From an uncultured Schlesneria sp. (GTDB lineage: Bacteria; Planctomycetota; Planctomycetia; Planctomycetales; Planctomycetaceae): a DNA stretch of 64,000 bases. Position 1 is the stretch's first letter, and each line of letters starts with the position of its first letter. Below, one piece after another: positions 1-20,253 of the stretch. The stretch is taken from NCBI GenBank assembly GCA_903858935.1, contig CAIOKO010000258.1, positions 1 through 64,000 on the forward strand. Reading direction: 5' to 3'. The notes beneath the pieces were generated by a model. The model ran no database searches. It saw nothing but the letters and a program-made list of their open reading frames with translations, and was not told where the DNA came from. Both the position numbers and the translations under genes were made by a program.

Positions 1-2114
1 TCGAGCAGATGCGGGCCAGAAAGGCCGCTGAAGCGAACGCACAACAGCCACCAGCCGCAGCAGCAGACCAGCCCGCAACATCGCCTGCCGAAGTAAAGTC
101 GGAAGAACCTGCTGCCCCACAGAAAAAACTGTCACCCATCGAGCTGATGCGGGCCAAAAAGGCCGCTGAAGCGAACGCACAACAGCCGCCAGCCGCAGCA
201 GGAGACCAGCCCGCAACTCCGCCTGCCGAGGTAAAGTCGGAAGAACCTGCTGCCCCGCAGAAAAAACTGTCACCCATCGAGCAGATGCGGGCCAAGAAAG
301 CCGGAATTGGTTCTGATCAGGTCCCGTCTGAGCCGCCAGCGAACACCCCTGCCAGCGGACAGTCCACCAGCCAGGCGGGAAAGACAGGCCCTTCAACCGG
401 AAACCTGGACACGCCACCAGTCCCATCGGGCAAGCCCACAACCGACGTCGATTCAAAACGTCCTCTACTGAAAGAAAAGCACTCCGGGGAACCTGGATCA
501 CTCGTTTTTCTCGTCAAATCGTGGTTAAACGGTCATGTACTGGAAGCTGCTCAACAAATCGGGAACCAATCGTTGACCGGTGAGCCCTTGGCTCGTGCTC
601 AGGAATTAATCCTTTCCGCATTGAATCAACTTCTCGGGAGACCTGATTTTTTGAATGACGATCGGTTGATTGCTGACGTCTATTCGAAGCCTGAACTCCT
701 GCGAAAAGTGGCGACTTTCCCGAAAGGGACTAAGGGAATTAAGAAGGATTGGTCCGAGCTGGAATTACGAACCGCTGGACGTGCGGCATTCAGCGAGATT
801 TTCCCTAAACTGATCCGAAAGCCGGTTGAATCTTCCGGACCGCCGCGTGTTCTCGCCTACCTGTCACGTGGCGAATGTTTTGGCGAAATTGCGGTTGTGA
901 CTCGCAGCCCTCGAAACGCCAGTTGTATCGCTTACAACCATCCCTCGACAGAAGAGGTTCGCGATTTTGGCAATGTCGAACTTGTGCGAATTCCCGGTGC
1001 GGCCTTTCGCAAGTTGATGGACGAATCACCAGCGCTCAAACAACAGGTTGAGTCCCTCGCTCAAACGCGTGTCAATCAAACGAAGTCCTCGGGTTCAAAA
1101 CATACTGAGACCGACCTAATTGCATCGGCCGAATTCCAGAAAATGGGCCTCTTTCAAGGAACGCGGCTGCTTGTCATCGATCTGGATTCGTGTACTCGTT
1201 GCGGGGATTGCGTCGAGGCGTGCGTAAAAACGCATGACGATGGTTATTCGCGATTGTTCCTCGACGGACCACGTTACGACCGTTTTCTGGTACCGTCAGC
1301 CTGCCGGAACTGTCTTAACCCCGTCTGCATGCTCGGTTGCCCGGTGGGGTCCATCGCACGTGGCAATAATGGTCAAATTGAGATCTATGACTGGTGTATC
1401 GGTTGTTCCAAGTGCGCCGATCAGTGCCCGTACGACTCAATACAAATGCACGACTTAGGCCTGATTCCAGAAGAATCACTTGGGTGGCTTTGTGCCAGCC
1501 GTCGATCATTACCCGATGACTGGTACCGAGCAAGGCGGCTGAGTGGTGGCTGGATGCAAGGATCGTCACCTTTTCTCTGGCAGGGAGATTTTCTCAGGAA
1601 CTTGACTGAAAGCGTTAGTGATTCCGAATCGTTATCGATCTGTTTTCGTCACGAATTTCGTTTGCCGAAGAAGTCAAAGACGAGTCACTATCGGCTTTCA
1701 ATAAACGAAGATCGACGTAAGAGCACGTTGAAAAAGGTCCGGGTCGACAAGTCCAAAGTCTTGGGCGTCTGGTTGAACGGAAAAAAACTGGAATTGACCG
1801 GAAATTCGATTGATCTTGCCACCGAAGATTTTCTGACAAGCGAAAATCTGCTCGCAGTCGAAGTCAGTTTGGGTTCAGACACGTCCTACGGTCAAATTGT
1901 CCTTTCAGCCTGTCTGGACGCTGTCCCGGAAGCGAGCGCTCAAACACGTGCGATCCTCGGAGATCAAGTTCTCCCTGAAATGGACCTGGTCACAAGCCGC
2001 GCTGCGGTGTGTGATCTCTGCAGCCACCTCCCAAGCCAGCAACCTGCCTGCGTAACGTCGTGCCCACACGATGCGGCAATCCGCATTAACCCCTTGATCA
2101 ACTTTCCGACGTAA
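1..2114 (+). CDS. Cyclic-nucleotide-binding / 4Fe-4S ferredoxin hybrid protein (5' end outside window)
   Basis: Probably a cytoplasmic or membrane-edge electron-transfer subunit feeding the cytochromes encoded downstream. The reading frame is open through the left edge, so the N-terminus is missing. Numbering is from the ATG at 9. Residues 1-92 are two copies of a 46-residue Ala/Pro-rich repeat ending in LSPIE. Around residue 291 lies the phosphate-binding-cassette signature FGEIAVV...R of a cNMP-binding domain, but the first strands of that domain are not visible. Cys 395/398/401/405, 432/435/440/444 and 463/466/469/473 form three ferredoxin-type clusters of the DmsB/HybA kind. A fourth set, 668/671/681/685, comes after an insertion of about 190 residues whose WLNGKKL...NLLAVEV pattern resembles a galactose-binding-like sandwich. 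The ferredoxin assignment is firm, the cNMP-domain function is doubtful. The next gene starts 24 bp downstream. Confidence 0.85.
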   Translation, partial: EQMRARKAAEANAQQPPAAAADQPATSPAEVKSEEPAAPQKKLSPIELMRAKKAAEANAQQPPAAAGDQPATPPAEVKSEEPAAPQKKLSPIEQMRAKKAGIGSDQVPSEPPANTPASGQSTSQAGKTGPSTGNLDTPPVPSGKPTTDVDSKRPLLKEKHSGEPGSLVFLVKSWLNGHVLEAAQQIGNQSLTGEPLARAQELILSALNQLLGRPDFLNDDRLIADVYSKPELLRKVATFPKGTKGIKKDWSELELRTAGRAAFSEIFPKLIRKPVESSGPPRVLAYLSRGECFGEIAVVTRSPRNASCIAYNHPSTEEVRDFGNVELVRIPGAAFRKLMDESPALKQQVESLAQTRVNQTKSSGSKHTETDLIASAEFQKMGLFQGTRLLVIDLDSCTRCGDCVEACVKTHDDGYSRLFLDGPRYDRFLVPSACRNCLNPVCMLGCPVGSIARGNNGQIEIYDWCIGCSKCADQCPYDSIQMHDLGLIPEESLGWLCASRRSLPDDWYRARRLSGGWMQGSSPFLWQGDFLRNLTESVSDSESLSICFRHEFRLPKKSKTSHYRLSINEDRRKSTLKKVRVDKSKVLGVWLNGKKLELTGNSIDLATEDFLTSENLLAVEVSLGSDTSYGQIVLSACLDAVPEASAQTRAILGDQVLPEMDLVTSRAAVCDLCSHLPSQQPACVTSCPHDAAIRINPLINFPT
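9..298 (+). repeat. 138 bp in-frame tandem repeat
   Basis: Units start at 9, 147 and (partial) 285. Each encodes MRA(R/K)KAAEANAQQ... and ends in LSPIE plus a Leu or Gln. The repeat begins at or before the window edge, so the copy number is unknown. It forms an Ala/Pro-rich linker at the N-terminal side of the ferredoxin protein. Confidence 0.9.
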
Positions 2115-2138
2115 GTCCCGACTCCTTGATCGGCAACT

Positions 2139-3770
2139 ATGTTTTACCCTCGCGAAACCGTGAATTCGACTTTTCCCGACAAACGCCCGGGGGATTCGAG
2201 GAAGTTGTATCGACCGATCCGCGTCCAGCGACTCGCAATGACAATCGGCTTTTTCATACTGCTGATTTCCGTTTCAAAGAATTCATTCGGACAAGTTCCT
2301 CCGCCTCCGTCACCGACTTCCCTCATCGACATCAACGGCACAGAAGTCTTTTCTGCGACGACCATAAATTCGCCTCATGATTACTCATCCGGCCGGTTTC
2401 TGGGCAGCCAATCGTGTACTGCGGCAAGCTGTCACGGAAATCCTCGTCGAGAATCCGCTCCTGGATCAGCGGCACATTTTTTTTTCGACAATGATCCTCA
2501 TCAAAGAGGGGGCGCGGTTCTCCGTGAAAAGCGTTCGGACGAGATCGTCAAACGACTAAACTTGACCAAGCCAGCATGGGAAACAAAAGAATGCCTTGTT
2601 TGCCACGCACCCGGAGCGATGCATTCAGAGAATCGCCAGGATTTCCTCGTAAAACTGGCGGAAGGAGTTGGCTGCGAAAGCTGTCATGGTCCTGCTCAAA
2701 ACTGGCTGACTCATCATCACACACTCGAATGGAAGTTCCCCGAAATCTGGTCAAGCGAAAGAAAATTGGACTCGGGTTTTCGTGAGACCAAGAACCTTGT
2801 TAACCGGGTCAACGACTGTGCTGACTGTCACGTCGGCAACGCAAGCCAGTCAGTCAACCATGATTTAATCGCGGCTGGACATCCCCGGCTCGTGTTTGAG
2901 TATGCCGCATATCAATCGCTGATGCCTGCCCACTGGCGACGTTCTGAAGATCGCCAACGACAGGCAATGGCTCGTGGCTCGCAGTCGAGTCTTTCAAATT
3001 CGGCAGCGAGGGACTGGCTGCTCGGACAACTCGTCAATGCCGAACATGAACTGAGCATCCTGTCCGCTTCTGCCAGCCATCCAGATGAAGTTCATGCCGG
3101 ATACCCAGACAAAGTCTGGCCCGAACTGGCTCAATACGACTGCTTTGCCTGCCATCATGACTTGAAGTCAGCGAGCTGGCAGCAATCCCGATCGGGTATT
3201 AATCTCGAATTGAAACCGGGCGAGATTCGATGGGGTACCTGGAGTCTCGGATTATTACCCGAACTGAAAACTCCCTTAAACCGGCTTGTCGACAATCAAC
3301 TAGTCGAAGATCTCTCGAAACTGCAAACGCGGATGAGATCCCCGATTGTCGAAACGAAATCGGTTGCTGATGATATTCTTGATTTGCAGCACAGACTGGG
3401 GCTGGCTGCAATATTTCTCGATAGAGCTGAACTTCGTACCGAAGACCTTCGTGCGATTCGAAATTCGTTACTTGCGGACTCCGCGCGAGTTACGAATCAG
3501 GGATGGGATCGATCAACACAGCTTTACCTTGCGCTCGTCGCAATTGATATCGGTTTGTCAGAAACCCCTTACCGACCGGATCGCATGAATCCCGGTCGCG
3601 AAGTGACTTATCGTCAATTGCGAGAGAATTTATCTTTCGGGGGCTCAACGAAATTGCGTCCGCCGTTCGAACATCGCGGGAGTCCGTTTCGTCTACAACA
3701 GAACTGGCAGAAAATCCAGCAGGGCTTTGATGATCTGACGATCCAACTCAGTTCGGAGCTTCAGCAATGA
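2139..3770 (+). CDS. Pentaheme c-type cytochrome, c554-like
   Basis: A periplasmic electron carrier with five covalent haem sites. The motifs are CTAASCH at 93-99 (an expanded CX4CH), then CLVCH 152-156, CESCH 179-183, CADCH 227-231 and CFACH 335-339. IAAGHPRL (244-251) followed by FE and PAHW is the signature seen in planctomycete cytochrome c554-like proteins and probably supplies a distal His ligand. The hydrophobic export segment is at residues 35-50, so the internal ATG at 2238 would give a conventional signal peptide and may be the true start. The C-terminal 200 residues have no haem motif. It lies 24 bp after the ferredoxin gene and its stop overlaps the next start by ATGA, so all three are likely one operon. 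Electron donor and acceptor are unknown. Confidence 0.88.
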   Translation: MFYPRETVNSTFPDKRPGDSRKLYRPIRVQRLAMTIGFFILLISVSKNSFGQVPPPPSPTSLIDINGTEVFSATTINSPHDYSSGRFLGSQSCTAASCHGNPRRESAPGSAAHFFFDNDPHQRGGAVLREKRSDEIVKRLNLTKPAWETKECLVCHAPGAMHSENRQDFLVKLAEGVGCESCHGPAQNWLTHHHTLEWKFPEIWSSERKLDSGFRETKNLVNRVNDCADCHVGNASQSVNHDLIAAGHPRLVFEYAAYQSLMPAHWRRSEDRQRQAMARGSQSSLSNSAARDWLLGQLVNAEHELSILSASASHPDEVHAGYPDKVWPELAQYDCFACHHDLKSASWQQSRSGINLELKPGEIRWGTWSLGLLPELKTPLNRLVDNQLVEDLSKLQTRMRSPIVETKSVADDILDLQHRLGLAAIFLDRAELRTEDLRAIRNSLLADSARVTNQGWDRSTQLYLALVAIDIGLSETPYRPDRMNPGREVTYRQLRENLSFGGSTKLRPPFEHRGSPFRLQQNWQKIQQGFDDLTIQLSSELQQ

Positions 3771-5512
3771 GTATCGCAAATCCTGCGACACGTCTCGAGT
3801 ACGTCTGTCTGATTCTTGCCTTGTTCCTTGGACAGATTGCGTCTGGAGACGATGGTGTCTCTCGCGACGCCAAAGATCGATTCGGGACGCCTGACAAATC
3901 TCGAATCGTTGTTGGATTTAATAACAGTAATTGTTCGATCTGTCATAGCAAAGGGACTTCCGATTCAAGCAATAAATTGCCGCCAAACTTGCGAGGACGC
4001 GGCAACGATGGATGGATCCTGGGTGATGAGATCTCTACGTGGTACGACCACGATTTTCACAGTCAAGCATTCAACGTGCTCTTGAACGAACAATCTCAGC
4101 AAATCGCAAAACGACTGGGAATCGTTGACAAAGAAACAAAGAAATCGATGGTCCATCGTGATCGTCGATGTCTTTCCTGCCATTCATCTGTTCCAGTTGA
4201 CCAGATGGTTGTGGATGCCGACCGCGTCGTTGACAAAGTGAATCAGGATTACGATACGGAAGAAGATCCTCTTTACAACATTGGGGTTTCTTGTGAGGCC
4301 TGCCATGGGCCTGCTGGTGGAAGCAATGGCTGGGAAAAACGTCACGTCGACGCCGACTGGAGAACAATGAACCCGAAGTCCAAGTTCGATGATTTCGGAT
4401 ATTGGGACATCCACTCTCCAAGAACTCAGACTCGAATCTGTCTGTCGTGCCATATGGGTAACGTCGAACAACAGAAGGTCATTACCCACGAGATGTACGC
4501 TGCCGGCCATCCGCCGCTTCCAAGCTTTGAGCTTTCTCAATTCGTTCATCAAATGCCCAGACATTGGCGTCGCCTCGAAGAGAAGCCGAAGTCTTTGAGT
4601 AAAAATGTCATCGAGAAACTTAGCCAATTCAATCAAGATTGTGACTTTGCCTTGATCGGCGACAACGAACTTGCCGCCACCAAATTGACGGTCATTTCGA
4701 CGTTGGTGACGCTGGAAGAATCGATGAGATTGACTGCCGGACTGATCTCAGACCCGGCCGCATCACCACAGTGGCCGGAACTGGCAAACTACTCATGCTT
4801 TGCATGCCATCATGAACTCAAACGTGATGGTTGGCGCAAGCGAAGCAGATTGAGCAAATTCCCAGGCCGCCCAACGCTACACGAATGGCCGTTCTCGCTT
4901 TCGCGCGTCGTTGCGCAAGAAGTCCTGAACACCGACAGCAAGTCCCTGTTCGAAAACAACGTCAACGCTGTGATTAATGCAATGACCGCTCGACCATATG
5001 GCGACTCGACGGAATTAAAACAGTCTGCAACAGCCCTCGCTAAAAGCATCGAAGCTGATACGAAACAGTTAAATTGCAAGACGATCGACCGTGAATTCGG
5101 AATTCGCTTTTTAACGAAACTTGCGACAGCGGCGTCGAACGAAATTACTGATTACGATTCGGCTCGACAGTTTGTCTGGGCCTACGAACGGACATTAAAT
5201 GCATTGAACAAGCCGGCACAACCCAATGTTGTCGCGTCACAAGAAAAGTTGCCAACCCCCGACACATGGGTTAGCGGCCATCCCGTCCTGGATGAATTTG
5301 AACAAGACCTCGTCCTTTGGCTTCGGTCGAATCGCAATGCCCCAATCCCGGTGAGTCTGGGCTCAAATGAACAAAAGTTCGAGCAATTGCAACGTATGAC
5401 AAACGTCTCTGAAACACTGAAAAAGATCGGCGAATACGACTCCCAGAAAACCAGCGAACGTTTTCAACGATTGCTGAAGACCCCTGTCGATCAAACCGAA
5501 CAAATTCGATGA
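3767..5512 (+). CDS. Pentaheme c-type cytochrome, c554-like (second)
   Basis: Periplasmic multihaem cytochrome related to the preceding gene. A signal peptide (hydrophobic residues 12-26, cleavage near ASG-DD) is followed by CSICH 56-60, CLSCH 135-139, CEACHGPAG from 176, CLSCHMGN from 225 and CFACHHE from 344. AAGHPP around 245 and a following MPRHWRR match the c554-like family. All five motifs are standard CXXCH, unlike the first cytochrome, whose first site is CX4CH. The start overlaps the upstream stop by four bases (ATGA), which indicates translational coupling and roughly equal amounts of both cytochromes. The C-terminal 230 residues are haem-free and of unknown role. Confidence 0.88.
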   Translation: MSIANPATRLEYVCLILALFLGQIASGDDGVSRDAKDRFGTPDKSRIVVGFNNSNCSICHSKGTSDSSNKLPPNLRGRGNDGWILGDEISTWYDHDFHSQAFNVLLNEQSQQIAKRLGIVDKETKKSMVHRDRRCLSCHSSVPVDQMVVDADRVVDKVNQDYDTEEDPLYNIGVSCEACHGPAGGSNGWEKRHVDADWRTMNPKSKFDDFGYWDIHSPRTQTRICLSCHMGNVEQQKVITHEMYAAGHPPLPSFELSQFVHQMPRHWRRLEEKPKSLSKNVIEKLSQFNQDCDFALIGDNELAATKLTVISTLVTLEESMRLTAGLISDPAASPQWPELANYSCFACHHELKRDGWRKRSRLSKFPGRPTLHEWPFSLSRVVAQEVLNTDSKSLFENNVNAVINAMTARPYGDSTELKQSATALAKSIEADTKQLNCKTIDREFGIRFLTKLATAASNEITDYDSARQFVWAYERTLNALNKPAQPNVVASQEKLPTPDTWVSGHPVLDEFEQDLVLWLRSNRNAPIPVSLGSNEQKFEQLQRMTNVSETLKKIGEYDSQKTSERFQRLLKTPVDQTEQIR

Positions 5513-7065: not shown

Positions 7066-7262
7066 CCCACCGTTGAAACCGTGGGCTATTATCGGGTGTC
7101 CCCAGGGGACAAGGACGGTTGCGTCGGCTGGCCCGACTTCGATCTCGAAACCAACCAAACGGTCACATGGCGAAGCGAACCCAAGTCGCCATCATCACAG
7201 AGGAGTTTGGCCTTAGTCCCGGTAGGGACGGTCGATAATAGCCCACCGTTTCAACGGTGGGG
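7066..7262. repeat. REP-like inverted pair
   Basis: A 30 bp element at 7066-7095 (CCCCACCGTTGAAAC..., ending TATTATCG) recurs inverted at 7233-7262 with one mismatch. Each arm is itself a hairpin built from CCCACCGTT and AACGGTGGG, and each sits beside GTCCC/GGGAC words. This is the usual form of a REP/BIME unit. Confidence 0.85.
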
Positions 7263-9937: not shown

Positions 9938-12900
9938 TCACTTTTTGGCGCTTTGTTTGGGTCGCAGTCGGGAATCTCGTGACGGACCGAACCAGTCTTC
10001 TAACCGGAAGTGAAGATCGACTTCGCGTTCCCTTGATCCTTGAATTCTCTCGTCGCGCTGGATTTCCGGAATCCGGTAGGGGGTGACTCCGTCCGGCAAC
10101 AGGTACATTCTCCGTTGTTCTTCCAGGGAGAGTGGTCGACCTCCAACTCGTCCGAAGACTGCGATCTGGTTGCCCGATTCGTCAACGGCCCGATCACGAT
10201 CGACCCCTTCGGAAATCGCCTTTGCACACCCGCCGTGTGGAAGGGAATACCCGGCGATGATTCGAGGAATCGGCTTGGGAAGAAAGCTGTCATACCCTTT
10301 GGTTTCAGGGGATGTCAGTTGCAGGACTCGCATGCCGTTGCGGCCATCGGCCACGAAGGCGAACTGGCTGGCATAATAGGCTCCCAGCTTCACGTCGTAG
10401 ACGTCGTTCATTTCGCCGCCCGCGTTGTATTCCAGATATTTCACAGGAAATTCCGGATTCGTCACGTCGATGATCACCAGTCCGTCACAGCCTGCCGCAA
10501 CGTAAGCATAGTTTCGTGCGACATAAACGTTGCGAGCGTCTCGCAAGGGATGCGTAGTGACGAGTCTCGGATGAGCGAGATCGGTCACGTCCAGGACCTT
10601 CAATCCATCCTGATCACAAACAAACCCATATCGAAACTGAATCTGAACGGCGGTTGGATTACGCAGCACATCGGCACCAATCGTCGAAACAATGCAAGGG
10701 TTTTTGGGATCGTTAAGATCGACAACAACCAAACCCGCACTGCAAGAGACATAGGCATATGTCCCGACGACCGTTACCGCACGCGCTCCGTTCAATTGTC
10801 CTTGAGGATTAAAGACAACATCGGCCTTCAGGAAATTGTTGGTTGGGTCACCATCCAGCAGCGTCCCAGCGCCGATCAGAATTAACCCGTCGTACAAGTC
10901 GGTCGCATAAACATACGCGTAAACGGCATGCACAGCCGCCTCATGATTTTCAGGACGATGGGTTCGTGTCGGATCTGGGGCGATCGTTGTCGGAGCAGCC
11001 ACCGAAGTCGCGTACCGGGTCTTCACGTAAAACTTCTGCCCGAGCGGCGAAACAGGTGCTGTCGAGAATCGCTGGGAAAACGCTTTGTCATCAATGAAAG
11101 CGATGTCAAAAATGCGAACGCCCCCTTCACCGCACGCTGCATACAAGTATTCTCCACGAGCCTGAAGGCTGAGGATTTCCGGGTGTTTAAACGGATGCAG
11201 AATGCTGTCGCCAATATCCTTGCCTGGATGTCGGGCGGCGATTAGCTGACTCCCGTTTTTGCAGTGCTTCTGATATCGGTTTGGGTAAACAATCTGATGC
11301 ATCGAGCTGCCGATTACGGTCTGAGGTTCATCCCTCTCGGATACCGCCACGCCGTGGATTCCGTGCTCACCGGCCCCAACCCAGCAATAGCGGCCAATGA
11401 AATTCATAAAATTCGTGCCGTGCATCATCAACTGGGCCATTTGTGCGTTGTTGCGATTGTCTTGAGTCAGATGACAATCCGCGCACATCTTGGTTTCGCC
11501 ACGCCCTCGAACTGTGTGAGGGACGTTTGTACTGAAAGCGATCCCGCTCATTCCTTCAGCAGAAATCGTCTGCTGCTGCGTATAGATGGAATCGCGGTTC
11601 TGGTTATAGGACGTCACATGAATCGCACACGACGACCGAGCCGGACCGATTTTGTTACCGGTCACGTTGCCATCGTGAGCCAGCATATAAATATCTTCTC
11701 GAAGCGTTTGAAAGTTATAAGAGACATAATTTCGCGTAACGTCACCTTCATTATGTAACCCCGGCGCCTTTTTATTAGCCTTTTGTGGCAGATGGCAGCC
11801 GTAGCAACTGGGATTCCAGGACGAATGACAGGCGATACAGTTAAGCTTTGCTCCGGCGTGGGCACATTCGCGTTCAGACTCCGGAACATCACCCCATGCG
11901 TATTCTCCGCCAGGAGCGAAACGGACTGTCTTCGCCAGGGCCGAAAGTGCGTTGTAATCTTTGTGCTTGGGATTAACCGTGTCTGCGACCTGCTTAATCT
12001 CCCAACTCAGGTCTTTTTCGACCATTGAATTTTGAACAACACGGTTGCCTCGCACTTCAAACCGGCGTTTTCCGAATGGAGTTCGCATCGAGGTCAGGTC
12101 TCGACCAACCGTGTTCCGCAGCGGATTCTCTTCGGCAGCCGGCCCGGTCGTGTGCATCTTCGGAATTCCGTTGACGACTTCAATCGCCCGCTGTTTTACG
12201 GAACCGTGACAGTCTTCACAGCGAATTTCGATTGCTGCCCGAACTTCCCCGTAAAGCTTGGTGTTTCCGTGCACATCCTGGGCGAAGTGACAATCGACGC
12301 AGTGCATCCCCTTTTCAAGATGGATATCCAGCAGATGCACGGGCAACCCGTTTTGATCCCTTCGCAGACTCTCTTCAAGTTCAAGTATGCTTTCAAGCGA
12401 TTTCTCATCACGATTCCGATGAACTTCTCGCGACCTGAGAGGCATATCAACGGCCGCCTGTCGTTCGCTCGGACCTGGATCTGCAATCTTATTTCCAAAG
12501 CGGTCCAGGTGGTTTCCTTCAGCATCCTTCTTGAAAACTGCTTTAAATACCCAACCATGTCCGTGGAAATCAGCGAAGTGGGACTTTTTCAGACGAGGGT
12601 TCAACTCTGCGATCGAATCGAGAAATGCAGGATCAGTCAAATTCGTGCGAGTCGTGATTTCATTGGGATCACTCATTTGAGACTGAGTGAATTCCTCTGA
12701 AGTCAAATTCCGCTCGACCTTCGGATACATCATCTCACCGTCAGTTTCCTGGTCCCACCACATGTAGCCCAGGTAACTGTTCATCACGGTTGTGCCAGGA
12801 TGAATATGGCAGACAATGCACTGGCTGGTTGGCATTCCCGTGACGAAACGGTGCGCCACAGGATGCCCTGGTTCGTTTTTGGGAATCATCGGATCGACGT

Positions 12901-14059
12901 GACTGACAAATTCGTCCGTCTCGAAATGTGCTGTTCCTTGATTACCGTATTTGGCCCAGGGACCGGAATTCACCGGTGAGCGGTCGTTGGCATAAACCAT
13001 GTGACACGACGAACAACCGCTGGAGCGATAATCGCCAGGGTGGTCGTTCGTACCAAGAAAATTCAGTGTTGGATCGAAAAGACGAGTCTTTTGCAAACCG
13101 ATGAACACCGGGTCCGTCCGGTTCAACGTTCCCAAACCACGATTACTGAGACGAGTTCTCGGCTTCCCGTTCAGCTCCTGAGTTTCGGGAATACCGATCT
13201 CGTTCGTAAACCTTCCACCCCGTTCGAAGATGCGCAGAATGTTTCCAGGCTGACTGTTTTCGAACCTCGGCAGAGGATCGAGAAACGGCAGAATACCTTT
13301 TCTGGCCGTCTCTTCGGGGGTTGGAGCGGGCACTGTCTGAAGCCTTTGTGGCGTGCCATTCATGGAATAGCTTTCGCCGTATTTTGGCCACTTGTTCGGG
13401 ACAGCTCCATTGTTATACAACGCCGCGCCCCACAACATGCAACCATGCGTCATCATGCTTTTTTTGACTTCAAGCGTTTCCTGCGAATGGCAGCTTGCAT
13501 TCCCGCAACTCAAATGAGCGATTCGCAAATCACCAGGATTCACGAACCGAATGAATTCAGGACACTCTTCATTTAACAGAGTGTAAGAACGGACGGGATT
13601 GGCCGAGGAATGCCAGATCTCGGGATACCGAGGCTGGACATGTGCCTCAATCTTATTTGTCGAATTGCTGTTGCCACCATGGCAATCAACACAGCCGAGA
13701 TGAAACGACAAGGGACGATCCGGCTGCTCATGCGGATCACACGCGTCTTTATGGCACTGAATACATCCCTGGCTTTTCATCGCAGCCAAATCAGCCGTCT
13801 GGCCGAGCAGCGTGTTTCTGAGCGCTTCATTTATCGATGGCCGATTTTCTCTCGGAGCTATGGGATCATTTTCAACAATGACAGGCGGAAGCGACCTCTC
13901 CCTTTTGACGAGACGGACCTTTTCGCCCGCATGCACCAGACGAGACGACACCAATCTTGGATTGACGTCGATATCCATCGTGAAGACGACGAAAGCAACA
14001 ACGCCTATCAGTGCGAAAAGTCTACGATTTAATTTTTGATGTCGATCCATGAGCGGCAT
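9938..14059 (-). CDS. Ten-haem c-type cytochrome with C-terminal LVIVD beta-propeller
   Basis: A very large exported electron-transfer protein. A signal anchor (residues 12-28) is followed by CIQCH 99, CVDCH 123, CGNASCH 185 (CX4CH), CSSCH 349, CIVCH 414, CVDCH 587, CEDCH 614, CIACH 741, CYGCH 752 and CADCH 859: ten haem sites over 765 residues. From about 960 to 1260 come LVIVD-type repeats such as YVSCSAGLVVVDLNDP, VCDQDGLKVLDVTDL and VAAGCDGLVIIDVTNP, expected to fold as a propeller. A second ATG at 14050 is an equally good start. It lies 83 bp downstream of a beta-barrel gene on the same strand, suggesting a porin-cytochrome pair that passes electrons through the outer membrane. That role is inference: no experimental homologue was identified. 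Confidence 0.86.
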   Translation of the reverse strand: MPLMDRHQKLNRRLFALIGVVAFVVFTMDIDVNPRLVSSRLVHAGEKVRLVKRERSLPPVIVENDPIAPRENRPSINEALRNTLLGQTADLAAMKSQGCIQCHKDACDPHEQPDRPLSFHLGCVDCHGGNSNSTNKIEAHVQPRYPEIWHSSANPVRSYTLLNEECPEFIRFVNPGDLRIAHLSCGNASCHSQETLEVKKSMMTHGCMLWGAALYNNGAVPNKWPKYGESYSMNGTPQRLQTVPAPTPEETARKGILPFLDPLPRFENSQPGNILRIFERGGRFTNEIGIPETQELNGKPRTRLSNRGLGTLNRTDPVFIGLQKTRLFDPTLNFLGTNDHPGDYRSSGCSSCHMVYANDRSPVNSGPWAKYGNQGTAHFETDEFVSHVDPMIPKNEPGHPVAHRFVTGMPTSQCIVCHIHPGTTVMNSYLGYMWWDQETDGEMMYPKVERNLTSEEFTQSQMSDPNEITTRTNLTDPAFLDSIAELNPRLKKSHFADFHGHGWVFKAVFKKDAEGNHLDRFGNKIADPGPSERQAAVDMPLRSREVHRNRDEKSLESILELEESLRRDQNGLPVHLLDIHLEKGMHCVDCHFAQDVHGNTKLYGEVRAAIEIRCEDCHGSVKQRAIEVVNGIPKMHTTGPAAEENPLRNTVGRDLTSMRTPFGKRRFEVRGNRVVQNSMVEKDLSWEIKQVADTVNPKHKDYNALSALAKTVRFAPGGEYAWGDVPESERECAHAGAKLNCIACHSSWNPSCYGCHLPQKANKKAPGLHNEGDVTRNYVSYNFQTLREDIYMLAHDGNVTGNKIGPARSSCAIHVTSYNQNRDSIYTQQQTISAEGMSGIAFSTNVPHTVRGRGETKMCADCHLTQDNRNNAQMAQLMMHGTNFMNFIGRYCWVGAGEHGIHGVAVSERDEPQTVIGSSMHQIVYPNRYQKHCKNGSQLIAARHPGKDIGDSILHPFKHPEILSLQARGEYLYAACGEGGVRIFDIAFIDDKAFSQRFSTAPVSPLGQKFYVKTRYATSVAAPTTIAPDPTRTHRPENHEAAVHAVYAYVYATDLYDGLILIGAGTLLDGDPTNNFLKADVVFNPQGQLNGARAVTVVGTYAYVSCSAGLVVVDLNDPKNPCIVSTIGADVLRNPTAVQIQFRYGFVCDQDGLKVLDVTDLAHPRLVTTHPLRDARNVYVARNYAYVAAGCDGLVIIDVTNPEFPVKYLEYNAGGEMNDVYDVKLGAYYASQFAFVADGRNGMRVLQLTSPETKGYDSFLPKPIPRIIAGYSLPHGGCAKAISEGVDRDRAVDESGNQIAVFGRVGGRPLSLEEQRRMYLLPDGVTPYRIPEIQRDERIQGSREREVDLHFRLEDWFGPSRDSRLRPKQSAKK

Positions 14060-14142
14060 CCATGCCAGGCACTTTCAGCAATTTATTCGTCAATTGCCAT
14101 AAAAACCAAGACTCGCACAAATCCATCGATAATCAACAAAAT

Positions 14143-16761
14143 CTAGAACTGAAAAATCGCCTGCATGAAGGCCGCACTTAGCACCCCAAGTGACGCAGAC
14201 GTCGTACTCGCGTTCGATGTCGTAAATGGCGACGTTGTGCCGTACAAATCTTTAAATCCAGCCCCGGGCAACAGACACGCATAGCCGCCGGTCAGAATAA
14301 TATTGTCACTTAGTAGCGGTCTGTACTCCAATCCGACACTCAGGTCAACGCCAATGGTCGGGTGGATATTATTCTGAAATGTATAGGCCTGAAGGACCTG
14401 GGTACTGTCAAACTCCAGGTAATTCGCGTTCGTAATCAAACGTGACCTGGGGGTTAATTCAAAATCCATACCCAGATTGAACAGATGCAAACCCGGATTG
14501 ACGAAATTGCTTTGCCCTTCGAACTTGCTGGACCTCAGGTCAGGTACAAGACTCATACGATTCACCAGACCGACGCCAAACAGATCGATCTGCTGGCGCT
14601 GCCAATAACTGAATTGACCGCCTGCGAAATTCGGGTTATCGAGGATCGTATCAAACCCTTTCGCCGTATGGTCATATGGGTTTCGGTCCCCCGATGCGTA
14701 GAAGAACGACGTCCGGAACCGAATCCAGTCGCGGTCGTAAGAAAGTTCCACGGCGGCCATTTGAGCGTTGATGTTTTGACTCGTCCCCGCGAGCGGATTT
14801 TGCGAATCTTTACCCGTCACCCAATAGAACGCGTTTGAGATGTTGAACCGACCAAAGTGACCGTCACCCGCCATCCCAAAATAGACGGATTCAACGCGAT
14901 GTGGCTGAAACACCCCAACAGGGTCAGGACGGGCAAGAAAATTATTCCGGTCGAATTTGTAACTCGGTCCATCGTTATTGTAGTGCATGCTAAATTGAGC
15001 TGTGTATCCGGGAAAAACAAAATCCTGACGATAGTAATTCGCAATCACGATATTCTGGTTGCGGTCTTCGAATGTATTAAGTTGACTGTTCGTATCCTTT
15101 TCAGCCTGCCTGAAGAACAAGAGGTTGAACTGATCGCGATTTGCCAGTCGCGTTCCAAACAGACGCACTGCACGATTGGTATCCGAGAAAATGAAACCTC
15201 GAAAATCGCTGGTGAATTGTTGGGACCCGACTCGCATTGACGCGAAGTCGTAGTCCGGACTGAGGTCTTTCAACTTGGCTTCAACAAAGTACTCTTCCAG
15301 AGCCATGAAATCGTCGAACCGTGATTTACCGAGGCGAACATCTGGATTGACGACGGCCAATTGTTGCGCCGACAGATAGTTGGCATCAAAGACGGGCGTC
15401 AGCCTGACATTCCAGTCAACTGGCTTGAAACTTGTGTTTCCATGAAACAGGTCGACGGACAATCGAAAGAAATTGGTCGTAAAATACTGGTTATTGTTAC
15501 CAAAAAACTGTTGTTGATTTGGTTTTGCCGTACTTTCAAACGGCGTTGTTGCCGTCGGAACCTGACGGAATTCCTGAATACTGTTGATCTGCCCGGTGAA
15601 CCTGATGAACGTGTGCTGCCCGATGATCGGGTAATCCCCTTTCAAGGCATTCAAATTATAGGGATCCCACCAGTGCCCTTTTTTATAGGGATAATCCTCA
15701 CCAAGCGGATGCTTCCGGTCATAGCGATCCCAATCGGAATAGCCGGATCGCCAACGGTCGGGAACGGGCACAAAATGACCGTCCTCCTGCACGTCGACAG
15801 GTAAAACCCCGGACTTACCCGAATACCCGAGTGGAGCTTCGATGGGATGCACGGGCCAGACGTTCGCAGCGACGGGCTCTGTAAATATGTCACCAGGTTC
15901 AGCAAAGGGCCGATCGAGCAGGCTCGGATCAAGCATGTTGCCAGATTCAATCCCCTCGTCGAACTCTGCTGGCTCTTCAATCTCTGGAAAGACCCTGTTG
16001 AACGGACGAGGAGTGGGGGGCAGATCTAACGTTTGAAACGTCGTCAAACTTGTTGAACCGGCCTCATAGAATGGGTCGGAACTTTCCATCGACTGACCCG
16101 TTAATGGATCAACGACATCACCTCCGTGATACACCGCACGCCTGACTCGCGACCGCCCCGCGACACCTGGAGTTTCGTCTTCCGACTGAAAGCGACTTCT
16201 TACCGATAAAGAAGACTTTTTTGCTGACTCAACGGGGAATTGATCCAAAGAGTGACCAGACCTTAATTCCTCACGAGGACGCGACTCGGAATACTCAGCA
16301 AGAATCAACCTCGACTTTGCCTGACACAGCGAGTCCGGATCACGATCCGCCAGCAATGCGACCCGGTCCAAGAGCAAGCGACTGGGAACAATACGTGCAA
16401 CAGCTTCCAATGCGTTACGACGAATCTGACTGTCGCGATTCTTGAGCAACTCAACCAATACCTCAGACAAATCTCGCAAGCGATCCTCGGCAATCGCATC
16501 GGCGGCAGCATTTTTCGTCGCAGCGGACCAACCCAGCTCTCCAGACAGCAACTCAATTCTCGCGACTGCAGGCTCGGTTACGATTTGATCAAAGCTGTTT
16601 TCTTGCGAATACCCGAATGAACTGACTGCAACTGCTGACCCGAGACTTAATAGAAATAAACAACATCTCGCCAGAACTCGACGACTGGATCGAATCTGAC
16701 GCAAGCTCACGACCCGAAGAATCGAGTACACAATTCCCGGTGATTGGTGAGGTTGATTCAT
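14143..16761 (-). CDS. Outer-membrane beta-barrel protein with N-terminal HEAT-like region
   Basis: Exported protein of 872 residues. A long signal region has its hydrophobic core at about 30-50. Residues 60-150 show helical repeat character (ALEAVARIVPSRLLLDRVAL). A Pro/Glu-rich linker runs to about 330. From about 380 to the end there are alternating polar/aromatic strands (FRLSVDLFHG, ASMRVGSQQFTSDF, VIANYYRQDF, LITNANYLEFDS), and the chain ends in Phe (AFMQAIFQF), as expected of a BAM-inserted barrel. It resembles alginate-export-type porins, but the substrate is unknown. It is the first gene of a likely two-gene operon with the ten-haem cytochrome, so it could be the barrel housing an electron conduit. 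Confidence 0.75.
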   Translation of the reverse strand: MNQPHQSPGIVYSILRVVSLRQIRSSRRVLARCCLFLLSLGSAVAVSSFGYSQENSFDQIVTEPAVARIELLSGELGWSAATKNAAADAIAEDRLRDLSEVLVELLKNRDSQIRRNALEAVARIVPSRLLLDRVALLADRDPDSLCQAKSRLILAEYSESRPREELRSGHSLDQFPVESAKKSSLSVRSRFQSEDETPGVAGRSRVRRAVYHGGDVVDPLTGQSMESSDPFYEAGSTSLTTFQTLDLPPTPRPFNRVFPEIEEPAEFDEGIESGNMLDPSLLDRPFAEPGDIFTEPVAANVWPVHPIEAPLGYSGKSGVLPVDVQEDGHFVPVPDRWRSGYSDWDRYDRKHPLGEDYPYKKGHWWDPYNLNALKGDYPIIGQHTFIRFTGQINSIQEFRQVPTATTPFESTAKPNQQQFFGNNNQYFTTNFFRLSVDLFHGNTSFKPVDWNVRLTPVFDANYLSAQQLAVVNPDVRLGKSRFDDFMALEEYFVEAKLKDLSPDYDFASMRVGSQQFTSDFRGFIFSDTNRAVRLFGTRLANRDQFNLLFFRQAEKDTNSQLNTFEDRNQNIVIANYYRQDFVFPGYTAQFSMHYNNDGPSYKFDRNNFLARPDPVGVFQPHRVESVYFGMAGDGHFGRFNISNAFYWVTGKDSQNPLAGTSQNINAQMAAVELSYDRDWIRFRTSFFYASGDRNPYDHTAKGFDTILDNPNFAGGQFSYWQRQQIDLFGVGLVNRMSLVPDLRSSKFEGQSNFVNPGLHLFNLGMDFELTPRSRLITNANYLEFDSTQVLQAYTFQNNIHPTIGVDLSVGLEYRPLLSDNIILTGGYACLLPGAGFKDLYGTTSPFTTSNASTTSASLGVLSAAFMQAIFQF

Positions 16762-17097
16762 TTACGGGTACATGAATCCAAAGTACATGAAAGGAGAAAA
16801 GAAGTGCTCCTGCGTATACGCAAAGGTGATATTTTCATTTTTTCAGCAATTCTCAATTAAATAAATAGTAAGGGAATCATTTGCGGACAACGCTCGTGCA
16901 GTGAGCGAAACTTTCTTACGAATCCGGCAGAAATCGCCAGAATAACCAGCGTTTTCCGTGAATCCTCCGGTGATGCCGAAAAAAACGGCTGTATAACCCG
17001 CTGCGCTTGCCGATCCATTTGGTAAAAGATTCCGCAATCGGTGAATCCATTTGTAAAACAGTTAACAAGCGTTTTCTGCCGTACGGAGTTTTGCGAG
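16762..17097. other. Divergent intergenic region
   Basis: Separates the minus-strand barrel gene from the plus-strand protease gene and so should carry both promoters. No operator-like palindrome stood out. Confidence 0.5.
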
Positions 17098-20000
17098 ATG
17101 AAATGGCAAGACGTGTTCCGAAGTTGGCTCGGTTCGAACGATTTCGATGAACGGCCTGTTCATCCCGATCGATGGGCGAACGGCACGGAAACTCTTGAAT
17201 ACCGGCTCGTTTTGGGTTCGTTGTCAACAGATCCATCATTGGCAGGAACGGCGAACGTCGGCCCCGTGACGAGCGTGACTCCAACCACGACGAATTCGAC
17301 GGGCAATACAGACAGTTCGACCGGGGGCATTCAGGCCATCGGGTCTCAATTTAGCAGCTTGTCACTGCAGCAGGATAATTCTTCGCCGAATTCAACAAGT
17401 CCGTCACAAACAACGACCGATTCGGCTCAGCCAGATACATATACTTCGTCGAACAACTCAACAAGCACAAGCAGTCCCGATGATGGACTGACATTGACGT
17501 CATTTAACTCCGTTGGATCGTTACCGGTATCGTCGCAATCGTCGACACAAGAGTCCGCGTCAGGGAATTCTGCGAGCACTGGGCCGGCAACACAAAGCGG
17601 CCCCATCATCACCATGACTCCTTCGGCTTCGACAAATTCGGCAAATTCCGTGAGTTCTCAGAGCTCTGAAGCGTCGCCAAGCTCGACATCGACAAGTCCG
17701 CCTGTTGCGATTGACACCTCTCTTACGGCAATAAATACGAATGTTCTCGTCAGCAGCGCAGCAGTAGCAGCGGCAAAAAACGGGGCCGGAGCAGCAGGGG
17801 CTAAGATCGTTCCTCCCTGGACTGGCAGCCAGGCCATCAGCACGGTGATTCATTACGATTTCCGCGATGCCAACGGGATCAAAAATGAGATCTCCGCCCA
17901 GCAAATTCAAACTACCGAAGCGGTGCTCCAAGACTGGTCGGCAGCAAGTGGTGGTAAAATCCAATTCGTGCGTGACACCACATCGCCCGCTTCTGACATC
18001 GTGAATATTGGAGTTGGCGACCTTTCTGCGGTCGGAATGACCAGTGCCGAAGGTGGCACGCTGGGTACATCGGTGCATTCCATTCAGACCGTTAAAGGAT
18101 CCCAAACGTCTGTGGGAACAATCTGGCTGGATCGCAGTGAAACCTGGGTCGACGGACAAAGTTCCGGCGCGACTTCCTCGGGCACTGATTTTGCCACCGT
18201 CATGGCCCATGAAGTCGGACACACGCTCGGCATCAGCGATGATCTGACGTCGCAAGGAATCATGAGTCCCACCTATTCCGGTACTCAGAATCTGGCAGGA
18301 ATCACGACGGCATTCCAGAACCCCAATTACTACACGACTGACAATGAGGACGCGAACGGTTTCATTACTGACAACATGGGGATGACAGCGGGCCAGTTGT
18401 CGATTGCGGATGTGACCCAGTTACTCAATCGAGCTTCGGTCGCTTCACCCAGCAACAATGCAATCATCGCCATAGTTGACCGTAACGGAAACATTCTGGG
18501 TGTTCGCCAGGAACAGGATGTCGTCGATACGATTAAAGACCCGGCAACATTAGCCTTCGCGACAGATGGCGCAGTATCTCTGGCCAGGACGGCAGCGTTC
18601 TTCGGGAACAATCAAGCCCCGCTCACATCACGAGTTGTGGAAGACCTCAGCCAGACGACGATGCTTCAACGGGAAGTCGAGGCCAACCCCAATTCCATGG
18701 ACCCTACGATAAAAGGCCCTGGCTTTGTCGCTCCCGTGGGAATTGGTGGTAATTTTCCAGCCGGTGTCGAACATACACCCCCTGTCGACTTGTTTAATAT
18801 TGAAGCTTCAAATCGAATTCAAACCGTAAGCCAGACCATGGTCAACCTCGAGTCTTACGGGACCGCGATTGGAATGACAGGTGTCTCACAAAATCGGGGA
18901 ATCGCCACCCTTCCCGGAGGAATTCCGATTGTCAGGGACATTAACGGAACACCGACGGTCGTTGGCGGAATTGGTGTCTTCTTTCCAGGGAAAGATGGTT
19001 ACGCCACCCATGAGCAAGGATTTGTCGCAGGACAGGACCAAACCGTAACCCAGCGCATGAATACCAATCAGGAATTGGAAGCGGAATTCATTGCATATGC
19101 GGCGTTAGGAGGTAGCCAAATCGCCATGGACTCTGGGGTTTGTGGCGCCGTCATTGGAAACCTCGGCGGCTACGCTCCCGTATCTGGCCTCGATCTTCCA
19201 TTTGGGCATATTTCACTGAATGGAATTCAGCTGGGGCTTTTCGGCTCGACCCCCGGGAACCAGGGGCTTGATGATTTGATCGAGCAGTTCGGCGGCGTTA
19301 TGGGAAAAGGGACGAACAGTGGTACAAGTCAGATTTTTGACACAACGACAAGTCCCACAACCATCATCAGTAGTAACACGGATATGGATCCCAAGATTAT
19401 TGGTACCGAAGAACCGTCAGGATATCTGGTCGATCCCACAACATCGCCTGCCAGTAGTTTAACCAAAGCCGAGATTACAGGGATTATCGACGCGGGGATC
19501 GCAGCAGCGAACAAAGTGCGAGCCGCAATTCGCCTGGGCTCAAACGACCCCAAACTCCGGACAGGAAACATCGGAGTTAAAATGACTTTCGCGATCACTG
19601 ATCCGCTCGGAAAAGTACTTGCCGTTTACCGCATGAATGATGGCACCGTGTTTTCCACAGACGTTGCCATCGCCAAAGCACGCAATGTTTCTTATTACGA
19701 CGACAAATCACAAATTCAGCCAGTTGATCAGGTCGCAGTCAATTCGTCAGATCCTGCAGGACAGAAGATTGCTGCCGGAACATCGTTTACCAATCGTACA
19801 TTCCGCTACCTGGCCGAGCCGTTCTTTCCTTCGGGAGAAAACGGATCAGCCCCCCCTCAATTCTCAATTTTGAGGGATGGATTGAATGGGAACCCGGCCG
19901 GAATCAATATTACCAATGGCGAGAATACAGGCGCACCAGCACCTGACACAGCTTTTACGAGCGTCATGGGACACGATGTCTTTAACGTCGGAACGAACTT

Positions 20001-20253
20001 CCACGACCCCGGCGATCCCGCGAACCAGAATGGAATCATTTTCTTCCCTGGCAGTACGGCACTCTACAAAAATGGACAACTCGTCGGCGGCCTGGGGGTC
20101 AGCGGTGATGGTGTTGATCAGGATGATGTCGTGACATTCCTTGCCGCCCAGGGCTATTTGCCGAATGGAACGAGTGTCACCACTGCCGATCAGGTAAACG
20201 TGGACGGCGTTCGGCTACCATTTCAGAAGTTTAATCGAAACCCATTCGGTTAA
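17098..20253 (+). CDS. Secreted metzincin-like metalloprotease with two HbpS/GlcG-like domains
   Basis: A predicted extracellular zinc protease of 1051 residues. The N-terminus carries TLEYRLVLG, an LExRLLL-type motif of large secreted planctomycete proteins, followed by a Ser/Thr-rich linker to about residue 210. Then a metzincin domain with HEVGHTLGISD (HExxHxxGxxD, first His at 371) and a Met-turn-like GIMSP. AIIAIVDRNGNILGVR (from about 455) with GGIPI...VVGGIGV (about 606) and, from about 790, FAITDPLGKVLAVYRM with GQLVGGLGVSGDG, are two HbpS/GlcG-type domains, a fold known to bind haem or small ligands. The ATG at 17098 has ACGGAG 10 bp upstream. A GTG at 17041 would add 19 residues but has no such site. 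No classical signal peptide is obvious. Confidence 0.78.
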   Translation: MKWQDVFRSWLGSNDFDERPVHPDRWANGTETLEYRLVLGSLSTDPSLAGTANVGPVTSVTPTTTNSTGNTDSSTGGIQAIGSQFSSLSLQQDNSSPNSTSPSQTTTDSAQPDTYTSSNNSTSTSSPDDGLTLTSFNSVGSLPVSSQSSTQESASGNSASTGPATQSGPIITMTPSASTNSANSVSSQSSEASPSSTSTSPPVAIDTSLTAINTNVLVSSAAVAAAKNGAGAAGAKIVPPWTGSQAISTVIHYDFRDANGIKNEISAQQIQTTEAVLQDWSAASGGKIQFVRDTTSPASDIVNIGVGDLSAVGMTSAEGGTLGTSVHSIQTVKGSQTSVGTIWLDRSETWVDGQSSGATSSGTDFATVMAHEVGHTLGISDDLTSQGIMSPTYSGTQNLAGITTAFQNPNYYTTDNEDANGFITDNMGMTAGQLSIADVTQLLNRASVASPSNNAIIAIVDRNGNILGVRQEQDVVDTIKDPATLAFATDGAVSLARTAAFFGNNQAPLTSRVVEDLSQTTMLQREVEANPNSMDPTIKGPGFVAPVGIGGNFPAGVEHTPPVDLFNIEASNRIQTVSQTMVNLESYGTAIGMTGVSQNRGIATLPGGIPIVRDINGTPTVVGGIGVFFPGKDGYATHEQGFVAGQDQTVTQRMNTNQELEAEFIAYAALGGSQIAMDSGVCGAVIGNLGGYAPVSGLDLPFGHISLNGIQLGLFGSTPGNQGLDDLIEQFGGVMGKGTNSGTSQIFDTTTSPTTIISSNTDMDPKIIGTEEPSGYLVDPTTSPASSLTKAEITGIIDAGIAAANKVRAAIRLGSNDPKLRTGNIGVKMTFAITDPLGKVLAVYRMNDGTVFSTDVAIAKARNVSYYDDKSQIQPVDQVAVNSSDPAGQKIAAGTSFTNRTFRYLAEPFFPSGENGSAPPQFSILRDGLNGNPAGINITNGENTGAPAPDTAFTSVMGHDVFNVGTNFHDPGDPANQNGIIFFPGSTALYKNGQLVGGLGVSGDGVDQDDVVTFLAAQGYLPNGTSVTTADQVNVDGVRLPFQKFNRNPFG

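Follow-up and report, generated by a model that had tools for sequence, protein, structure and literature searches.

A barrel protein and a ten-haem LVIVD cytochrome form a conserved planctomycete pair, putatively the outer end of a PCC4-like electron-transfer system

Introduction

Can a planctomycete pass electrons across its outer membrane, and if so, with what kind of apparatus? The question is raised by two adjoining genes in a 64,000-nt stretch of DNA from an uncultured Schlesneria sp. (GCA_903858935.1, contig CAIOKO010000258.1, positions 1-64,000 of the forward strand; hereafter the window). Both open reading frames lie on the minus strand with 83 bp between them. The upstream gene (14143..16761) encodes an 872-aa protein with a predicted outer-membrane barrel, and the second gene (9938..14059) encodes cyt10, a 1373-aa cytochrome with ten haem motifs and a C-terminal LVIVD beta-propeller. 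An earlier sequence-only reading had described this arrangement correctly and proposed that the pair is a planctomycete version of the MtrAB-type porin-cytochrome conduits. We find that the pair is conserved and belongs to a larger set of redox genes. From what the genes encode, their haem motifs, the barrel and propeller folds predicted for them and their co-occurrence, we favour, with some reserve, a reading in which a trans-envelope electron-transfer system of the putative PCC4 kind, a conduit tentatively proposed in 2017 by He et al. (PMC5566968), would have this pair as its outer-membrane end. What is said here of published systems refers to the available parts of the papers cited.

Results and Discussion

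Cytochrome and barrel occur in the same genomes

Relatives of cyt10 were found in 574 stretches of a genome-contig collection, and the best 80, ranked by similarity to the cytochrome, were kept as loci (numbered L; genomes are numbered G). Of these, 77 are in records named as planctomycetes (the exceptions are L041 and L108, named 'bacterium', and L088, 'Bacteroidales bacterium'), and six are from named strains. By our script's criterion the barrel gene is directly upstream of the cytochrome gene in 50 of the 80 loci, and it is present anywhere in the locus in 55. The other 25 loci seemed to represent a barrel-free subtype, which we rejected since 23 of the 25 genomes carry a barrel elsewhere (in G359 just a fragment of 73 residues, in G360 divided between two contigs), bringing the number of cytochrome genomes with a barrel to 78 of 80. 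No barrel was found in the last two, G348 and G350, the completeness of which is unknown.

The same pattern holds across the phylum. In an evenly drawn sample of 294 planctomycete genomes, cytochrome (profile E-value ≤1e-50) and barrel (E ≤1e-10) were detected in the identical 32 genomes from 16 families, including genomes in which the two genes are unlinked; in G054 and G331 they are on different contigs. Here and below, at most two cytochrome, seven b-type membrane protein and three HbpS-like candidates were scored per phylum genome, so a miss is weak evidence. Among 59 nearer genomes, 21 have the barrel, and the haem part of the cytochrome is found in the same 21 and in G028, a 78% complete genome with neither a barrel nor a b-type match. 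The cytochrome tally for this sample was 24, of which 22 were counted: G040 and G046 were left out because their match is confined to the propeller region (E 2.0e-5 and 1.9e-6). Several of the 22 are contig-end fragments (G024, G026, G028, G031). Within the genus of the window, some genomes carry the complete set and others none of it. Because the genomes are related, we attach no probability to these counts. The cytochrome-barrel pair is nearly inseparable, and the pairing first noticed at a single locus holds across planctomycete genomes.

A ten-haem cytochrome that carries a propeller

The haem motifs of cyt10 are as the sequence-only reading gave them: nine CXXCH (residues 99, 123, 349, 414, 587, 614, 741, 752 and 859) and, at site 3, one CX4CH (residues 185-191; 13487..13507, minus strand). 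In an alignment of 81 sequences (the 80 loci and the window), each of the ten sites is kept in 80 or 81, with both spacings allowed at site 3. The spacing there is CX2CH in 43 sequences and CX4CH in 38, and since CX2CH replaces it in 43 of 81 homologues, the CX4CH of site 3 is probably a true haem site. Atypical CX3-15CH haem motifs are known among Pcc outer-membrane cytochromes (PMC4245776). A further 22 His positions are more than 80% conserved across the alignment, a number that would suffice for bis-His ligation of the haems. The C-terminal propeller was also correctly recognized: PF08309 (LVIVD) matches at E 3.5e-20 and 71.5 bits, above the gathering cut-off of 20.2, and the best repeat stretch covers residues 1173-1211 (10427..10543, minus strand).

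The haem part was compared with known families. At E ≤1, cyt10 matched neither the MtrA/DmsE (decahem_SO) nor the OmcA/MtrC models of NCBIfam. The matches obtained were ExtM (68.3 bits, cut-off 800), ExtN, ExtO, the choice_anch_B propeller (28.8 bits) and two at chance level. Relatives of cyt10 also score below the cut-off of 800 with the ExtM model (NF040943; 81.2 bits for L061 and 64.0 bits for Sphingobium), and none of 14 control genomes matched. Because the ExtM match consists of three collinear stretches that fall in the first 870 residues, the haem part of cyt10 looks like a remote ExtM relative with an added propeller. ExtM itself has 12 haems and a mass of 68.3 kDa (PMC5877670, PMC6148476). 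A sequence search of solved structures with the cytochrome returned only a chance match (E 0.6). In a structure model of a homologue's core, only the propeller is confident. For the haem-domain fold the model is too weak, and the 50 Foldseek matches listed are mostly propeller proteins.

The predicted barrel is narrower than MtrB

We modelled the 872-residue protein with AlphaFold from an alignment of 51 sequences, the window protein and 50 relatives. The protein starts with a hydrophobic segment, followed by HEAT-like helices, a disordered linker and a predicted 18-strand barrel resembling AlgE and the Occ channels. The barrel domain takes up residues 384-872 (14146..15612, minus strand), with 18 strands of at least 10 residues within 384-871. 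Mean predicted local distance difference test score (pLDDT) is 71.5; from residue 381 onwards, 35 of 50 blocks of ten residues exceed 85, while residues 161-342 are of low confidence. Every one of the 51 aligned sequences ends in an aromatic residue (Tyr in 39, Phe in 10, Trp in two), which in the window protein is the Phe that had been noted together with its barrel-like character. The HEAT-like N-terminus proposed earlier stands as predicted structure, residues 65-158 (16288..16569, minus strand) being modelled as confident helices. It does not stand as a Pfam assignment, with HEAT_2 matching below its cut-off (E 0.004), nor as a general feature, as many relatives are much shorter there and lack the helices.

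The best Foldseek match of the barrel in the PDB is the alginate exporter AlgE (E 7.3e-17; template modelling score 0.71 by target). VIA-align likewise places AlgE at Z 27.4 (root-mean-square deviation 2.7 over 360 aligned residues) and Occ/OprD channels at Z ~25. The likeness is one of fold: identity is only ~13% to AlgE and ~10% to Occ/OprD, the gene context is different, and at E ≤1 the protein matched no barrel family in Pfam, only weak HEAT/Arm models, and no model at all in NCBIfam. Its sequence search of solved structures returned only artificial or HEAT-type helical repeats, at E 0.025 or worse, in the HEAT part. MtrB is absent among the 50 VIA-align matches listed, which proves nothing by itself.

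These results bear on the possibility that the cytochrome threads the barrel to form an insulated wire, as MtrA does in MtrB. The two genes adjoin and co-occur, as this arrangement would predict, and the pair resembles MtrCAB/OmcA in uniting a barrel with a decahaem cytochrome. However, MtrB sheathes ten-haem MtrA with 26 strands (PMC7198977) compared to the 18 predicted here. The cytochrome belongs to another family, without an MtrA/DmsE or OmcA/MtrC match, carries a large propeller, and has 137 residues per haem compared to ~33 in MtrA homologues (PMC5566968). We consider a threaded wire very unlikely, and on the predicted barrel size and the profile matches we reject membership of the MtrAB/OmcA group, so that this part of the sequence-only reading falls.

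It should also be noted that loci with the AlgE-like barrel elsewhere may have a different outer-membrane-type protein beside the cytochrome. Examples are L077 6518-7711, L090 6502-7713, L105 1675-2856 and L108 7165-7806; PF05150 was found in L077, the one tested.

The pair belongs to a larger redox gene set

While the gene pair was seen correctly, it is incomplete as the description of a system. Two further parts of the window belong to the set. Divergent to the barrel gene is a gene (17041..20253, plus strand) for an HbpS-like protein (PF03928, 51.8 bits; gathering cut-off 25) with a matrixin-type metalloprotease domain. At the start of the window, a cluster at 9-5512 on the plus strand encodes the C-terminal part of a cyclic-nucleotide-binding/4Fe-4S protein (9..2114; PF13247 at 27 bits, cut-off 26.2) and two c554-like pentahaem cytochromes, A (2139..3770; four CXXCH and one CX4CH) and B (3767..5512; five CXXCH). 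A second contig of the same genome, C106 (locus L124), encodes the N-terminal half of the cyclic-nucleotide-binding/4Fe-4S protein, a b-type membrane protein (L124 1729-2688, divergent to that half gene), a cytochrome with ten CXXCH and another c554-like cytochrome, the third of the set. A 138-bp tandem repeat is present both at the window start (1-303) and at the matching end of C106 (L124 1-424), inside the cyclic-nucleotide-binding/4Fe-4S gene. From this shared repeat and from L036 of the same genus, in which the Fe-S and membrane protein genes adjoin, we infer that window positions 9-2114 and the C106 end are one broken gene. The five c-type cytochromes of the set have 35 haem motifs in total, three of them CX4CH.

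The c554-like cytochromes show a motif pattern of their own. One CX4CH with four CXXCH, as in window 2139-3770 and L124 4402-5976, is seen in 32 of 59 c554-like genes, and 26 of the 29 loci with any c554-like gene hold one of this pattern.

Counted by profile thresholds in the 80 loci, many of which are short, the neighbours of the cytochrome are the barrel (55), HbpS-like (40), c554-like (29), b-type (16), cyclic-nucleotide-binding (14) and decahaem c3 (14) proteins. Among the 43 loci that reach 18 kb, one or more of the c554, c3, b-type and cyclic-nucleotide-binding genes occur in 24, and three (L047, L090, L091) have none of the six partners, their genomes carrying the barrel elsewhere. Among the 59 nearer genomes, the b-type protein (E ≤1e-25) is present in exactly those 21 that have the barrel. 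In the phylum sample, 77 of 294 genomes gave a b-type match at E ≤1e-8, and we counted only matches of at least 170 bits. Such matches were found in 17 of the 32 carriers of the pair (G278 only in part) and in two of the 262 other genomes (G101 and G133). The HbpS-like protein (E ≤1e-20) was detected in just five of the 294 genomes, all of them carriers, and is therefore an optional partner. Beyond the shared PF03928 domain its companions vary: a matrixin domain in window 17041-20253, a dockerin domain in L049 3039-5414.

Sphingomonad plasmids carry the set

Plasmids provide a second line of evidence. The c554, HbpS-like, barrel and cytochrome genes are together on the same 13 of 72,556 plasmids, and 12 of these also carry the b-type protein and the decahaem cytochrome, neither of which was found on the plasmid of Sphingopyxis indica. 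Two Gloeothece plasmid records were left out, their match being limited to the propeller. In the three Sphingobium/Sphingopyxis plasmids inspected (L113, L114, L115), the order is c554-like, HbpS-like 'heme-binding protein', barrel homologue and LVIVD decahaem cytochrome; barrel homologues on Sphingobium/Sphingopyxis plasmids are 39-40% identical to the window protein. On the two Sphingobium plasmids among them a divergent set lies next to these genes and comprises a phosphoesterase, a decahaem c3/c7 cytochrome with an FHA domain, a membrane protein and a cyclic-nucleotide-binding/4Fe-4S protein. In S. herbicidovorans, where the domains were tested, the last of these also has a pyridine-nucleotide oxidoreductase part. 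The plasmids that carry the outer four-gene block are large sphingomonad ones, and two of the 13 were typed as conjugative. Twelve of the 13 cytochromes and all 13 barrels are annotated as 'hypothetical protein' only.

The shared genome sets (32 of 294, 21 of 59 and 78 of 80) and the shared plasmids lead us to reject a chance pairing or local artefact. They also bear on a different reading, namely that the barrel exports polysaccharide or protein and that the cytochrome is a mere genomic neighbour or a maturation factor. AlgE is an exporter, and the domains seen in the HbpS-like partner, a metalloprotease in the window and a dockerin in L049, would both suit export. However, the phyletic sets of barrel and cytochrome are identical even where the genes are unlinked, and the plasmids carry the multihaem genes jointly. 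We regard this reading as the least probable of those weighed here.

The set resembles the putative PCC4 conduit

The description of PCC4 comprises a porin, Fe-S/redox genes and cytochromes that bind haem at 4, 5 and 10 sites, and it names Alphaproteobacteria and Planctomycetes among the carriers; the inner-membrane proteins of PCC3 and PCC4 have an SGXXG and two WX3HX13H motifs, with five helices in PCC4 (PMC5566968). The b-type protein of our set carries SGXXG and both WX3HX13H motifs, as do nine of the 10 sequences aligned; in the tenth, L036, the gene runs off its contig and one WX3HX13H is left. The CXXCH counts also correspond, with 4 in cytochrome A (in addition to its CX4CH), 5 in cytochrome B and 10 in the decahaem cytochrome of C106. 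As in PCC4 subgroup II, a pfam13247 Fe-S gene adjoins the membrane-protein gene, on one contig in L036.

There are also differences. Our set has a further c554-like cytochrome and the LVIVD decahaem protein beyond the PCC4 counts, and joins Fe-S and cyclic-nucleotide-binding domains in one protein; the PCC4 text, unlike our set, describes three periplasmic cytochromes (PMC5566968). In the available text of that paper the terms 'lvivd', 'cnmp' and 'cyclic nucleotide' are absent, and its PCC4 sections mention no HbpS-like protein. The LVIVD protein could be among the unlisted or the 10-haem genes of PCC4. We conclude that the set appears to be a PCC4-like variant and not an entirely new kind, a match made by described gene content and inner-membrane motifs. 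Not in the PCC4 description are the propeller cytochrome, the HbpS-like partner, the cyclic-nucleotide genes and an outer pair that is more conserved than the wire.

Other porin-cytochrome systems are less close. The Geobacter extHIJKLMNOPQS cluster similarly combines a porin, several multihaem cytochromes and a membrane cytochrome b, and shares the remote, collinear ExtM similarity; cyt10 is nevertheless far below the ExtM cut-off and has ten haems instead of 12, and our barrel has no NCBIfam match. The Pcc clusters, including a two-gene cluster of the planctomycete Candidatus Kuenenia stuttgartiensis, also place a porin-like protein beside a multihaem cytochrome. They were found through similarity to OmaB/OmbB/OmcB, and, compared by description only, the Kuenenia cytochrome has 12 or 14 motifs, with no propeller mentioned in the available text (PMC4245776). 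Porin-multihaem clusters of freshwater Verrucomicrobia, a related phylum, are proposed conduits as well; by their description, to which our comparison is limited, the adjoining cytochromes have eight haem sites (PMC5615132). Porin-cytochrome complexes have been sought in planctomycete bins with other marker sets (PMC10732223). In the open-licence literature, which excludes subscription papers, preprints and supplements, our searches found no description of an LVIVD multiheme cytochrome, of a planctomycete system joining cyclic nucleotide-binding, multiheme, cytochrome b561 and 4Fe-4S components, or of a multiheme cytochrome on a Sphingobium plasmid.

Proposed electron path and an enzyme-porin alternative

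Under the PCC4-like reading, electrons could move in either direction along the following path. The cytoplasmic cyclic-nucleotide-binding Fe-S protein would exchange electrons with the membrane protein, which is predicted to hold two b-type haems, and this in turn with the membrane-anchored decahaem cytochrome and the periplasmic pentahaem cytochromes. The pentahaem cytochromes would pass electrons to or from the decahaem LVIVD cytochrome, presumably docked on the 18-strand barrel and exchanging them with a partner outside the cell. A candidate for that partner, or for an accessory, is the HbpS-like protein. The idea of a planctomycete conduit with a fused-propeller cytochrome thus survives in part: the conserved pair sits in a redox set with members for all compartments of the envelope, but its relatives are not MtrAB or OmcA.

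Several observations weigh against this reading. MtrB is much wider than the barrel modelled here, the 137 residues per haem of cyt10 are unlike wire-type cytochromes, and the haem part of the cytochrome model (homologue core, pLDDT 57.8 overall) is unreliable. By a simple hydropathy threshold, our b-type protein has three hydrophobic segments compared to the five helices of PCC4 proteins. Of the 32 phylum carriers, 15 lack a b-type match of at least 170 bits among the candidates scored. Finally, conservation within the set is highest in the outer pair, which is the opposite of what is reported for Geobacter conduits, where the outer components vary most (PMC6148476). Compared with the window in loci outside its genus, the cytochrome (75 loci) has a median identity of 59.8% and the barrel (50) one of 58.0%. 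The HbpS-like protein (36) follows at 43.6% and the cyclic-nucleotide-binding/Fe-S part (9) at 42.0%, while the b-type protein and the remaining cytochromes have 33.6, 31.9, 30.0, 28.6 and 23.4%, the pentahaem paralogues being paired by best hit only. As the 80 loci were picked by cytochrome similarity, these medians are biased in favour of the cytochrome; the barrel gains no direct advantage.

An alternative is that the LVIVD decahaem protein is a periplasmic oxidoreductase with its own substrate porin, acting on a specific soluble substrate that the barrel lets through, without any electrons crossing the outer membrane. The barrel resembles AlgE and the Occ/OprD channels, and 52 of its charged or His positions are kept in 90% or more of the 51 aligned rows. 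The high residue-to-haem ratio and the very high conservation would fit an enzyme. In addition, the remote relative ExtM clusters with the porin ExtI, the loss of which lowers selenite and tellurite reduction (PMC5877670). On the other side, PCC4, with matching cytochrome counts, is taken as a conduit by its authors (PMC5566968), and the HbpS-like protein, from a family named after a secreted haem-binding protein, accompanies the pair in 40 of 80 loci. We think a periplasmic enzyme with its porin rather unlikely, while regarding it as the most serious of the alternatives.

Returning to the PCC4-like conduit, a specific soluble or secreted partner is plausible, because neither the strong conservation of the outer pair relative to the rest of the set nor the 137 residues per haem would be expected of a plain mineral wire. 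More speculatively, and with well under even confidence, we suggest that the set may represent a distinct trans-envelope redox class whose conserved core is its outer end and not its wire: a propeller-capped decahaem oxidoreductase seated on a substrate-type channel of 18 strands, in many cases accompanied by an HbpS-like protein, dedicated to one specific extracellular substrate and supplied by a cyclic-nucleotide-gated electron input. Such a system would also be carried as a block by sphingomonad plasmids.

A possible link to cyclic nucleotides

The hint of cyclic-nucleotide gating comes from the cyclic-nucleotide-binding domains of the Fe-S protein together with cyclase and phosphoesterase genes near the sets. 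A class III nucleotide cyclase gene is present, as a raw count, in 16 of the 80 cytochrome loci. These are L091 (4873-7029), L096 (2031-3932), L098 (5079-6938), L077 (15337-17160) and 12 others. PF00211 was confirmed in all four cyclases tested. The phosphoesterase lies beside the set in the two Sphingobium plasmids examined and is annotated CpdA in one. Counting against the link, neither the window nor the 12 kb read from C106 yielded a relative of this cyclase. The input proteins, all with cyclic-nucleotide-binding and 4Fe-4S domains, differ in what is added: Pyr_redox in Sphingobium, a NuoG-like Fe-S part in L109 and, less completely, in L082, and neither in L031.

If the PCC4-like reading is true, a conduit tentatively recorded from iron oxidisers would recur among planctomycetes and on sphingomonad plasmids. 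The cytochrome family and barrel type of the set are undescribed for such systems in the open-licence literature searched, and the possible influence of cyclic nucleotides on electron flow can be tested. With conservation highest at the outer end, one may also ask whether such conduits can be specialised for one substrate rather than for minerals.

Two minor features of the window were also recorded. An Acido-Lenti-1 RNA was detected at 7215-7261 on the minus strand (45.1 bits; gathering score 37), and downstream of the HbpS-like gene is an IS200-like Y1 transposase gene (PF01797; 21009-21455, plus strand).

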